Position numbers and translations under genes: made by a program
Shown: positions 13,265-16,928 of the stretch, in pieces
Layout: the number at the start of each line of letters is the position of its first letter
Numbering within the stretch: the stretch's first letter is position 1
Assembly: GCF_002197845.1 (NCBI RefSeq)
Contig: NZ_NIDE01000014.1
Span: forward strand, 1,054,001-1,118,000
Reading direction: 5' to 3'
DNA: 64,000 bases
Origin: Fimbriiglobus ruber
GTDB taxonomy: Bacteria; Planctomycetota; Planctomycetia; Gemmatales; Gemmataceae
The notes under the pieces: generated by a model
Seen by the model: the letters and a program-made list of their open reading frames with translations, nothing else
Told to the model about the DNA's origin: nothing
Databases searched by the model: none

Positions 13265-14008
13265 TTACTTCGAGTCGCCGTAGGCCGGGTATTGGTTCAG
13301 AATCCGCGTGCGGACGGGGATCGAAATCTTGATGTCTTTCGAATCGTCGAGCGGCGCGATCTTCGGGGCCGGCGCGGTCGGCTTGTCCGGGGTCGGCAGC
13401 GGCACCGGGTTCGCCGGGCCGCCGTCGTACTGGAACGGGCCGGTCGGGACCGGAGCCGCCGGGCTCGGGGTTACCGTGCCGTCCGGGTTGACTTGCACCG
13501 GCGCCGGGCCGGCTTCCGGCTGAACAACGCCCTGCACGACGCCCTGCACGACGCCCTGGGGCGGGTAGTACGACGCCCCCCCGGCGACTTGCGGGGAGCC
13601 GTAAACGACGCCCGGGCTACCGCCGTAGTAGCCGCCGCCACCATACCCGCCTCCGCCGTACCCACCACCATAGCCGCCATACCCGCCACCGTAGCCGCCG
13701 TACCCACCATAACCGCCGTACCCACCGCCGAGGCCGTAGCCTAGGCCATACCCCACCCCAAGGCCAACGCCGAGTCCGACGCCGCCGTAGTAGCCACCAC
13801 CATAGCCGCCGCCGTAGTGGGCACCGCCGTAGTGGGCAACGCCCCCGCCGTAGTGGGCGCCACCCCCGCCGTAGTGGGCGCCGCCACCACCGGCGTGCCC
13901 ACCGCCACCACCATGGCCACCACCGCCGCCACCACCGTGGGCATACGCGCTGCCCCCGAACGCCACACCGGCGCTCAGTACGGCTGCGGTACAAAGTTGC
14001 CGAATCAT
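13265..14008 (-). CDS. Secreted Gly/Tyr/His-rich repeat protein, paralogue A
   Basis: A 247-residue exported protein: signal peptide MIRQLCTAAVLSAGVAFGGS, then His/Gly runs, GGGAHYGGG repeats and GYGG/YGGYGG repeats up to about residue 135. The C-terminal 110 residues are not repetitive and end in APLDDSKDIKISIPVRTR and a short tail. A second gene just upstream encodes a protein of the same design with the same type of C-terminus. GAGGG lies about 8 bases before the ATG. Gly/Tyr-rich repeats are typical of adhesive or structural surface proteins. A role in the cell envelope is inference; no enzyme domain is seen. Confidence 0.75.
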   Translation of the reverse strand: MIRQLCTAAVLSAGVAFGGSAYAHGGGGGGGHGGGGGHAGGGGAHYGGGGAHYGGGVAHYGGAHYGGGYGGGYYGGVGLGVGLGVGYGLGYGLGGGYGGYGGYGGYGGGYGGYGGGYGGGGYGGGGYYGGSPGVVYGSPQVAGGASYYPPQGVVQGVVQGVVQPEAGPAPVQVNPDGTVTPSPAAPVPTGPFQYDGGPANPVPLPTPDKPTAPAPKIAPLDDSKDIKISIPVRTRILNQYPAYGDSK

Positions 14009-14237: not shown

Positions 14238-15065
14238 TTACTTGACGCCATAAGCGGCGTATTTGAAGCCCTTCTTGACGACGGGCACGGAAATTTTCAC
14301 TTCCTTGGTGTCGTCGACCGGGTCGATTTTCGCGGGCGGAGTAGCCGCCAGCTGCGTGGGTTCGGAGCGCACGTCCGGAACCGTCACTTTGGCACCGGGT
14401 TCCGCCGCGCCGAGGTCAATGGCTACGACCGGGGCGATCGAAACCGGCGAAGCGGGCGTGCCCGCGACCGAGCAGATCCCGGCTGAGTAGCCGACCGGGG
14501 AGACGACCGAGCTGTAGTAGCCGCCGTAGCCACCACCGTATCCGCCGTACCCACCGCCGTAGCCCCCATACCCGCCGTACCCATAACGGCCGTAGCCGCC
14601 ATAGCCACCGTACCCGCCGTAGTACCAGGGGTTGTACAGACCGTAGCCCAAGCCGAAACCGAGGCCGTAGCCCAAGCCGTAGCCGAAGCCGCCGTATCCG
14701 TACCCGCGGTAGCCGTAGCCGCCCCAACCGTACCCGCGGTAGCCGCCCCAGCCACCGTAGCCGTACCCGCGGTAGCCACCATACCCACCGTAGCCGCCGT
14801 GGAAACCACCGTAGCCGCCGCCGTGGAATCCGCCGCCGCCGTGCCCACCGCCACCGTGCCCACCGCCGCCGTGGAGGAGTTCGGTGTCGCCTTTCGTACT
14901 CGGATCGTTGTCCTTGGCGGCGGTCGATTCGACGGCCCCCGCGAACCCGCCGGTGCCGGGTTTAAACCGGCCGAGCGGGATTGTTTCATCGTCGGCCGCG
15001 GCGGCCCGGCCGCCGAACCCGACGCCCGCGGCAATGACGGCCGCGGTCCACATGAATCGTAACAT
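14238..15065 (-). CDS. Secreted Gly/Tyr-rich repeat protein, paralogue B
   Basis: A 275-residue exported protein. The signal peptide is MLRFMWTAAVIAAGVGFGGR, then AAAADDETIP. A linker follows, then HGGGGHGGGG and a long GYGGYRGYGYGG-type region to about residue 190. The C-terminal 85 residues are ordinary and end in KIDPVDDTKEVKISVPVVKK. That tail matches the end of paralogue A (I-x-P-hydrophobic-DD-x-K-x-x-KIS-x-PV), so the C-terminus is the conserved module while the repeat region varies. GGGGAGG lies before the ATG. Both genes are monocistronic with their own terminators. A structural or adhesive surface role is likely but unproven. Confidence 0.75.
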   Translation of the reverse strand: MLRFMWTAAVIAAGVGFGGRAAAADDETIPLGRFKPGTGGFAGAVESTAAKDNDPSTKGDTELLHGGGGHGGGGHGGGGFHGGGYGGFHGGYGGYGGYRGYGYGGWGGYRGYGWGGYGYRGYGYGGFGYGLGYGLGFGLGYGLYNPWYYGGYGGYGGYGRYGYGGYGGYGGGYGGYGGGYGGYYSSVVSPVGYSAGICSVAGTPASPVSIAPVVAIDLGAAEPGAKVTVPDVRSEPTQLAATPPAKIDPVDDTKEVKISVPVVKKGFKYAAYGVK

Positions 15066-15282: not shown

Positions 15283-15525
15283 TTACTTTTTCGCGAGGCG
15301 GGACGCGACGGCGAGTTGGATCTCGCGCTCGTCGGGGAATTCACCGGTCTCGAGTTTCGAGTAAACCAGCTCGCCGTTAATGGCAACTTCAAAACAGCCG
15401 CCGCCGGCGGGGATGAGTTTGAAGGCGGTGATCTTTTGCTTGAACGCGGTCAACAGGCGGGCCGCCAAACTGACGGCGTTGGGCTCGTACCCTCACTGGC
15501 TGCAATACTTCAGCTCGATCTGCAC
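15283..15525 (-). CDS. SelW/Rdx-family protein with in-frame TGA (candidate selenoprotein)
   Basis: Reading from a GTG at 15525 (GGGAG 7 bases upstream) gives VQIELKYCSQ, TGA at 15495-15493, then GYEPNAVSLAARLLTAFKQK and on to GGGCFEVAINGELVYSKLET, ending LAKK: 80 residues in all. With the TGA read as selenocysteine the N-terminus is KYCSQUGY, the C-x-x-U redox motif of the SelW/Rdx thioredoxin-like family after its first strand. The length is right for the family. A small RNA hairpin begins 15 bases after the TGA. If TGA is a stop, only ten residues are made. The alternative is a Cys-to-stop mutation (TGC or TGT to TGA) in an ordinary C-x-x-C Rdx protein. No selenocysteine machinery lies in this window. 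Confidence 0.72.
15461..15477 (-). promoter_or_regulatory. Possible bacterial SECIS-like hairpin downstream of the TGA
   Basis: On the minus strand GCCGUC pairs with GGCGGC (five Watson-Crick pairs and one G-U) around the loop AGUUU, which begins 22 bases after the TGA. CAAC/GUUG just outside could extend the stem with a bulge. A short stem-loop inside the coding region just 3' of the UGA, with a G early in the apical loop, is what bacterial selenocysteine insertion needs. The hairpin could also be chance in GC-rich DNA. Confidence 0.45.
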
Positions 15526-15592
15526 GCGATCTCCCGTGAATGACGTGCCGGCCCGAGGGCCGACGCGACCCGCGACGACCGGCGCCGCTATT

Positions 15593-16387
15593 CTAGCCGC
15601 GGCAAATAGCGTCGGGAGACACGCGGTCCGATGCGGCTCGCGCTAAATGGTGGGTGGTGGCCTTTAAAAACGGCTTCAACGTCGGGGTCGTGAACACGTA
15701 AACATACGCGACACCTGGGTGAGCCGGGTCGCGATCGACCTGGGCGAAGCAGAGGCTCCCCTCGGCCGTCTGAAGCGACTTCAGGTTGCGTAAGTTGAAC
15801 TGCGTGTCACGCAGGATGTAGACCTTGACCCAGTCCTGCCGGCCGTTGGCGGCCGGGGCGTCGAACCGGACGACGGGCACGTCGCGGCCCTGGAACGGTT
15901 CGGTCCCCCGGTCGCGGAACAAGCGGTAGTCGAAATCCAACGGCAGGTGCGGTGGGAGCGATTGCGACGAGAGCCACAGGGCGACCTCGTTCTCGGGTGC
16001 GTCCATCGCGTTTTCGTTATTCTTCACAAATTCTGTGGCGTCAGGGGCCGGCAGGAAGAACTTCAGGTAGCCGCCGTAGCCGAGCGCACCCGTCGCCATG
16101 ACGGAAGCCGCAAAAGCGAGTCTGAAGCCGACCGTCCGGCGCAGACGGGCGGCCTGCCCAGTGCGCGCGGACGCAACTAAGCGGTCGCGGAGGCCGACCG
16201 GGACAGGGACCGCTTTCATCGCGGACGCGACGGCGGTGTCGAAGGCCGCGTCGCGACTGGCCAAGGCGGCGCAAGCGGGGCACGCGGCACAGTGGCGGGC
16301 GAGGGCGGCGGCGTCTTCGGGCGCGAGTTCGGCCGGACCGCCGGGGCGGCGGAACGCGAGCAACGATCGCGCGGTTTCACAGTTCAT
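15593..16387 (-). CDS. Anti-sigma factor with zinc-finger-like N-terminus
   Basis: A 264-residue membrane protein. The N-terminus has the anti-sigma zinc-finger pattern: C near residue 3, then ARHCAACPACAAL (H-x2-C-x2-C spacing). One membrane helix (FAASVMATGALGYGGYLKFF, about residues 90-110) is followed by an exported C-terminal domain of about 150 residues. It overlaps the end of the sigma factor gene at 16377 by 11 bases, so the two are translationally coupled. The pair would hold the sigma factor at the membrane until a stress signal releases it. The signal is unknown. Confidence 0.85.
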   Translation of the reverse strand: MNCETARSLLAFRRPGGPAELAPEDAAALARHCAACPACAALASRDAAFDTAVASAMKAVPVPVGLRDRLVASARTGQAARLRRTVGFRLAFAASVMATGALGYGGYLKFFLPAPDATEFVKNNENAMDAPENEVALWLSSQSLPPHLPLDFDYRLFRDRGTEPFQGRDVPVVRFDAPAANGRQDWVKVYILRDTQFNLRNLKSLQTAEGSLCFAQVDRDPAHPGVAYVYVFTTPTLKPFLKATTHHLARAASDRVSPDAICRG

Positions 16388-16928
16388 GGGTGGCCCTCCG
16401 GGGGGCGTCGTCCGGGGAGTTCGTCGTCGGGTCCGGCCGCGGGGCGAGGCGGGTTCGCAGGAACGCCTTCGCCCGGGCCAACCGGGACATCACGGTTCCG
16501 ATGGGCAGGTCCATCTGGTCCGCGATGTCGCGATAACTGAAATCCTCGAAATAAAACAAGATCAATGGCGTGCGGAATGACTCGTCGAGGTCATTCAACG
16601 CTTCCTGAAGTTTCGCCGGGTCCACCTCGGACTCGGCGGGCGCGGAACTATCCTCGGGCACATCGCCGATCGCGTCCAGGGACACGAACCGGTGGCGCCG
16701 CTGGTCGCGAACGCGGTGCAGGTACACGTTCCGCAAAATCTGGAACAACCATCCTTTAGCACGGTCCCGGTCGCGAAGCTGGGACAACCGCGCGATGGCT
16801 TTCGCGAACGCTTCCTGCGTCAAATCTTCGGCATCGGCCACCGTCCCGGTTAAGCGGTAAGCGTACCGGTAGAGCGATTCGTAGTGGGCGTCGATGAGGT
16901 GTCGGGCGCCGGTCTCGGCTCGCGCCAT
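16377..16928 (-). CDS. ECF sigma factor (RpoE-like)
   Basis: A 183-residue sigma-70 family ECF factor. Region 2 is seen at YESLYRYAYRLTGTVADAED, followed by LTQEAFAKAIARLSQL. Region 4 is at DLDESFRTPLILFYFEDFSY, followed by RDIADQMDLPIGTVMSRLAR. The start MARAETGARHLIDAHY gives the usual length. It is the first gene of a two-gene unit with its overlapping anti-sigma factor. Autoregulation from the upstream 400-base region is likely, but no promoter could be assigned. Confidence 0.92.
   Translation of the reverse strand: MARAETGARHLIDAHYESLYRYAYRLTGTVADAEDLTQEAFAKAIARLSQLRDRDRAKGWLFQILRNVYLHRVRDQRRHRFVSLDAIGDVPEDSSAPAESEVDPAKLQEALNDLDESFRTPLILFYFEDFSYRDIADQMDLPIGTVMSRLARAKAFLRTRLAPRPDPTTNSPDDAPRRATHEL

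Follow-up and report, generated by a model that had tools for sequence, protein, structure and literature searches.

The locus raises a simple question: does a TGA codon lying in frame within a short gene of the SelW/Rdx family end translation, or does it encode selenocysteine? The window, that is, the whole stretch of 64,000 nucleotides analysed here, contains the following features of this gene.

15283..15525, minus strand: selW-like (Rdx) coding sequence, 80 aa with the predicted Sec11 (translation with the TGA read through; Pfam Rdx and TIGR02174)
15525–15523, minus strand: GTG start codon of selW (sequence)
15531..15535, minus strand: GGGAG, likely ribosome-binding site, 5 bases from the GTG (by eye)
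15502..15504, minus strand: TGC codon of Cys8 in the CxxU motif (sequence; Cys is encoded here by 85 of the 88 family loci)
15493..15495, minus strand: in-frame TGA, predicted Sec11 (sequence; the codon is shared by 86 of the 88 family loci)
15477-15472, minus strand: first arm of the hairpin, GCCGUC
15471-15467, minus strand: loop of the hairpin, AGUUU
15466-15461, minus strand: second arm of the hairpin, GGCGGC
15461..15477, minus strand: the whole hairpin GCCGUC-AGUUU-GGCGGC, predicted bacterial SECIS (covariation, synonymous-codon test, Sec versus non-Sec homologues, bSECIS rules)
15285–15283, minus strand: TAA stop codon of selW (sequence)

With the TGA read through, the frame translates as MQIELKYCSQ, TGA, GYEPN, GYEPNAVSLAARLLTAFKQ... 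and ends at the TAA. The product passes the cut-off of Pfam Rdx (PF10262; 1.9e-20, 73.3 bits against a cut-off of 22.6) and that of NCBIfam TIGR02174, CXXU_selWTH (67.3 bits against 34.2). The score with NF041051, SelTWH_Campy, is 75.5 and lies below the cut-off of 88, hence we do not claim membership of that subgroup. Translation of the plus strand at 15283-15525 yields no Rdx/SelW protein. Thus the initial annotation, which proposed an 80-residue GTG-started SelW/Rdx frame with a ribosome-binding site and gave no strand, holds for the minus strand. It also holds in placing the TGA at the redox position of C-x-x-C/U, with Cys8 first and TGA11 in the Sec/Cys column of the family. Its further suggestion, that the gene encodes a selenoprotein, is supported by the selenocysteine genes of the genome, by the conservation of the TGA and by the hairpin, all of which are described below. 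Judging from the comparative sequence evidence, we have hardly any doubt that this is a SelW/Rdx gene whose UGA at 15495-15493 is recoded as selenocysteine, giving a CxxU active site.

The conservation of the TGA is best seen among relatives. A selW match was found in 75 of 95 genomes of the same bacterial family, the genome of the window included. The table of matches has 89 rows, from which 88 loci were read (the window locus among them), because two rows of one genome (G087) are pieces of a single frameshifted gene. At the Sec column 86 of these 88 loci have TGA, one has Gly GGT (L076 in G005) and one has Cys TGC (L093, which is a second copy in G047). The Cys8 column is TGC or TGT in 85 loci and TGA in the remaining three. 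The second set that was read, 108 loci mainly from planctomycetes, shares part of its genes with the family set and repeats the window locus; here the Sec column is TGA in 95, Cys in 6, Gly in 6 and Ala in 1, so that Gly equals Cys in frequency among the non-Sec forms. In the phylum sample, among the matches listed, 11 rows have no stop, and all 11 proved to be Cys, Gly or Ala. The relatives therefore show the Sec/Cys pairing that would be expected of the family, and not an unrelated residue in place of the TGA, a finding that the initial annotation would have taken as a refutation.

One may argue that the TGA is an ordinary stop codon, and that the gene either starts at a TTG past it, as a 61-residue Rdx fragment, or is a pseudogene. 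Indeed, the table 11 list of open reading frames contains such a TTG-started ORF of 61 aa in the selW frame (15283-15468), and one family homologue, that of G087, is frameshifted. However, 87 of the 88 family loci have a start codon (ATG in 78, GTG in 8, TTG in 1) at a distance of exactly ten codons upstream of the Sec column, and the residues between the two are conserved. Moreover, the codons neighbouring the Sec column vary while the TGA stays in 86 of 88, and the RNA hairpin downstream is under selection. In our opinion, an ordinary stop is very improbable. Another possibility is that the TGA is a sequencing error for TGC or TGT. A single base separates TGC from TGA, and Cys forms do exist (6 of 108 loci in the second set, 1 of 88 in the family set). 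But with TGA in 86 of 88 family loci, dozens of assemblies would have to contain one and the same error, which is not a credible assumption, and the window gene has the inner pairs of the SECIS stem, which are absent from 12 of 15 Cys, Gly or Ala forms. We regard such an error as the least probable of all the explanations considered.

Selenocysteine also requires a machinery, and the initial annotation proposed to search for selA, selB, selC and selD. All four are present in the genome of the window (G000; 12.36 Mb in 20 contigs, 97% complete), and the lack of such machinery that would have refuted the initial annotation is not observed. The match to selA has an E-value of 6.8e-167. For selB, the main piece scores 330.9 bits, or 362.6 once another piece from that frame is added, against a cut-off of 242. 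The tRNA-Sec has the anticodon TCA and scores 70.7 bits, ARAGORN agrees, and the four matches that rank below it are ordinary tRNA-Ser. The selD match (1.1e-107) is the Cys form, CAGCASKLP. Among the 95 family genomes, a selA match is found in 88 and is over the cut-off in 85; selA is without a match in four genomes whose SelW has TGA (G039, G069, G077, G082), and its match is weak in three others with TGA (G013, G030, G032).

We also compared the distribution of both genes in a phylum sample of 392 genomes, taking SelW in any form at E 1e-4 and selA at E 1e-40. SelW occurs in 142 and selA in 246; both are present in 129 genomes, SelW only in 13, selA only in 117 and neither in 133. The co-occurrence has a p of 5.7e-20, a value that ignores shared ancestry, and we take it as supporting evidence only because the genomes do share ancestry. 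Of the 13 genomes with SelW and no selA match, one (G098) has the Cys form, and the other 12, among the matches listed, have TGA; four of these (G144, G155, G176, G358) are at least 90% complete. These 12 genomes count against a perfect link between SelW and selA, unless selA was missed. Incomplete assemblies may explain genomes of this kind, in the family as well as in the phylum sample.

It is also conceivable that an altered genetic code or a suppressor tRNA makes UGA stand for Trp or Cys and not for selenocysteine; that a frame stays open when read with a different code does not in itself prove selenocysteine. Against this stands the complete set of sel genes with a UCA tRNA-Sec. Further, TGA is the first terminal stop met in 45 of 86 family homologues, hence the codon does not generally encode an amino acid in them. 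The conserved hairpin past the internal TGA, and the fact that the column is the known Sec/Cys column of the family, speak for selenocysteine as well. We would give decoding as Trp or Cys as little credence as an ordinary stop.

The hairpin deserves a separate discussion. Its stem begins 15 bases after the TGA, and 21 bases lie between the TGA and the loop. Published rules for a bacterial SECIS (PMC13188914) give a loop of 3-9 nt, a stem of 4-16 bp, a G within the first two loop positions, a distance of 16-37 nt from the UGA and an energy of at most -7.5 kcal/mol. The hairpin agrees with each of these quoted rules: its loop has 5 nt with G second and then U, its stem has 6 bp, its distance is 21 nt, and the energy of a 27-mer is -10.4 kcal/mol. 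Folding of the single sequence gives a z of -1.32 for the 27-mer, with 21 of 200 shuffles as stable, and -0.52 for a 50-mer, with 59 of 200 shuffles as stable, so that the hairpin alone is not exceptional. Since it is unproven by such folding, comparative tests were used. Likewise, a scan of the 64-kb window with Rfam found no family at the gathering score, and the SECIS was therefore judged by alignment.

The covariation test was made on 76 distinct sequences with 500 shuffles. Paired cells amount to 83.3%, cells changed on both sides number 44 (12.5 in shuffles) and the covariation score is 0.295 (0.146 in shuffles); none of the 500 shuffles reaches any of these three values. Six pairs have both sides changed (4.2 in shuffles; 3 of 500 reach that), and the further pair types, 15 versus 12.6 with 46 of 500 shuffles reaching that, are weak support. 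If the partner is slid by 1-3 columns, pairing falls to 13.5–46.6%. Of the 76 sequences, 39 leave the outer pair 18–36 open, 30 the outer pair 19–35 and 16 the outer pair 20–34, hence the conserved core consists of four to five pairs.

The coding sequence itself carries a similar message. In a synonymous-codon test, 43% of 70 sequences have a hairpin that ranks among the most stable 5% (p<=0.05), a share that is 5–8% at the three control places; the selW sequence of the window taken alone gives p 0.117, which is not significant. Among the 86 TGA loci, 76 encode Ser in the loop, always by AGT, and 10 encode Gly, always by GGT, while AGT makes up 19 of 271 Ser codons elsewhere in the same genes. 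When the distinct homologues of both sets are pooled, 115 of the 132 with TGA retain all four inner pairs and 119 of the 132 have a loop that fits RGUYU, versus 3 of 15 and 1 of 15 among those that lack TGA. The loop of the E. coli fdhF hairpin is GGUCU. In our opinion, these sequence comparisons show that the predicted hairpin is under selection at the RNA level across the relatives. It goes beyond chance because the relatives keep the start place, the TGA column and a covarying stem. The stem-loop that the initial annotation regarded as fitting for a bacterial SECIS thus stands, on the published rules, the covariation, the AGT constraint and the contrast of Sec with non-Sec forms.

Nine distinct TGA-type genes that lack some of the inner pairs (L112, L114, L115, L116, L121, L127, L128, L137, L191) have the loop AGCCT. 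By eye, a shifted hairpin closer to the TGA can be drawn in them, CAGGC or CGGGC-CGUGA-GCCUG, and this may be an alternative SECIS register. Separately, 15 loci with GYR past the Sec position (L094, L095, L097-L109) represent a second, divergent SelW type, YCTSUGYR..., and these also have a TGA and a hairpin with the loop AGUUU.

In G005, the gene (L076) has Gly GGT in place of Sec, with GGGS in place of GGGC, and selA is present in that genome. The loop AGUUU is kept, but the SECIS stem is decayed, with 3 of the 4 inner pairs and 3 of 6 pairs overall remaining. To judge from its sequence, this Gly form looks like a recent loss of Sec.

Three family loci have TGA at both active-site codons (L056 in G066, L070 in G037, L072 in G036), and these genomes appear, as far as sequence can tell, to encode a UxxU SelW. 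In the review tables of PMC9312934 and PMC13188914 the SELENOW-like motif is given only as CxxU. In the UxxU forms, the first UGA would be 30 nt from the SECIS loop, within the published range. Between G036 and G037 the gene has 32 base differences (16 synonymous and 10 non-synonymous codons), and both TGAs are kept. The case of G066 is more complicated. Its locus L056 is identical to L044 from the Sec TGA to the stop, four codons differ before the TGA (two of them synonymously), and further upstream the two sequences are unlike. Either recombination or a chimera in one of the two assemblies accounts for this pattern, and the UxxU case for G066 is therefore weaker. Two other loci, L179 and L189, also have TGA at both positions; they lie on contigs equal in length to those of G066 and G036. 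A search for further UxxU forms in the phylum and class samples gave none among the matches listed: the other rows with two TGAs, and several rows with another stop, all have Cys first. The rows read for this purpose include that of G297 (L129).

How would the protein be made, and what might it do? We infer that the product is a thioredoxin-fold oxidoreductase of the SelW/Rdx family, whose CxxU would be completed by co-translational insertion of Sec at the UGA. Sec would be made on tRNA-Sec(UCA) by SelA, with selenophosphate supplied by SelD, and SelB, bound to the hairpin that lies within the coding sequence 15 bases past the UGA, would bring the Sec-tRNA to the ribosome. The finished protein probably performs selenol/thiol redox chemistry via Cys8 and Sec11.

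The neighbourhood of the gene offers some leads in this respect. Two genes on the same strand precede selW.

15593..16387, minus strand: anti-sigma-like gene with H-x3-C-x2-C, 67 bases upstream of the selW start (DUF3379 at 32.9, below the Pfam cut-off of 33.2)
16377..16928, minus strand: ECF-type sigma factor, overlapping the anti-sigma-like gene (Sigma70_r2 1.6e-16, Sigma70_r4_2 1e-13)

For comparison we used the 86 TGA loci with at least 1900 bases, of which 65 are distinct; the sequence extends 1500 bases upstream in only 54 of these and at least 1300 bases downstream in 62. Several of the biggest clusters of neighbours were set aside, as their coordinates look antisense to, or overlapping with, selW or its neighbours. 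In 10 of the 65 loci, the window included, selW is immediately preceded by homologues of both sigma and anti-sigma. The anti-sigma homologue is beside selW in 11 of 65, and H-x3-C-x2-C is found in 10 of these 11, the exception being short at its start. A selD homologue is located directly downstream of selW in 18 of 65, and no locus among the 65 combines sigma/anti-sigma upstream with selD downstream. One selD homologue was tested and confirmed (L046; TIGR00476, 7.4e-101). The start of SelD was sought in five loci and found in three (L046, L042, L090), each with an in-frame TGA, CAGUAGK. On the other side of the window gene, at 13265-14008 and 14238-15065 on the minus strand, there are two adjacent genes for glycine/tyrosine-rich proteins with similar C-terminal tails, KISIPV and KISVPV; the product of 14238-15065 has no Pfam match.

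Zinc anti-sigma factors with H-x3-C-x2-C sense thiol oxidation. Because the H-x3-C-x2-C of the anti-sigma-like protein resembles that of zinc anti-sigma factors, one can speculate that SelW is a selenium-dependent redox partner of the upstream ECF sigma/anti-sigma pair, either resetting its thiols or being the main output of the pair. We consider this rather improbable.

An AlphaFold2 model of the product, built with Cys replacing Sec, has a pLDDT of 88.9, with a strand at 2-8 and a helix at 14-28, and the C-x-x-U (Cys8, TGA11) sits at the first strand-helix turn of this predicted structure. Its best matches in the PDB by Foldseek are the bacterial SelW-related proteins 2fa8, 2obk, 3dex and 2p0g, with TMq of 0.82-0.91; for 2fa8_D the E-value is 2.1e-8 and TMq 0.87, and the predicted fold is thioredoxin-like, as in solved SelW.

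As to novelty, bacterial SelW-like CxxU selenoproteins are already known and have been in print since at least 2005. In the Sargasso Sea set no other family was as abundant (PMC1088965), and in the GOS survey they were, together with SelD, the most widespread (PMC2398784); they have been described in complete bacterial genomes, where Sec-using bacteria have few Cys homologues of them or none at all (PMC1794560), and the scarcity of Cys homologues here is in line with that account. SELENOW-like CxxU proteins are listed in review tables (PMC9312934, PMC13188914), and the biological functions of the selenoprotein group that includes them are described as largely uncharacterised (PMC13188914). For planctomycetes, PMC4807772 lists selenoprotein candidates for the red-alga isolates P1 and P2; the word SelW is absent from its main text. 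A report of the SelW-like family in Gemmataceae was not found in the literature covered, supplements and most subscription journals being outside that coverage.

Plain ORF finding with table 11 truncates selW, and it is plausible that standard gene callers would, as the initial annotation says, start the gene past the TGA. Comparison settles the presence of a conserved SelW-type selenoprotein in a large-genome planctomycete and in most sampled members of its family. The gene also illustrates clearly how an in-frame SECIS is constrained at the codon level, with Ser AGT fixed at the loop. Within the family, apparent UxxU forms can be set beside Cys copies and beside the gene of G005, where Sec seems to have been lost, and the sigma/anti-sigma and selD neighbours are testable leads on the role of bacterial SelW.

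In comparison with known systems, the window gene shares fold and family with 2fa8, 2obk, 3dex and 2p0g, but the two aligned chains, of 2fa8 and 3dex, have CxxC and no Sec, whereas the product here would have CxxU. The thioredoxin-like fold is common also to mammalian SelW (mouse SelW 2npb, TMq 0.77, identity 28%), and mammalian selenoprotein W has CxxU as well (PMC8508763). The eukaryotic SECIS, however, is located in the 3' UTR (PMC1088965), while that of selW is predicted inside the coding sequence. With the bacterial SelW-like selenoproteins described in the papers cited above, the gene shares the family, the CxxU motif and a bacterial SECIS with G in the apical loop. It differs from them, as far as those accounts go, in its occurrence in Gemmataceae, which they do not name, in loops that are mostly RGUYU, and in adjoining an ECF sigma/anti-sigma pair. 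Finally, the full gene set for Sec insertion has been reported for Gemmata obscuriglobus and Isosphaera pallida (PMC4807772), and the genome studied here has the same set.
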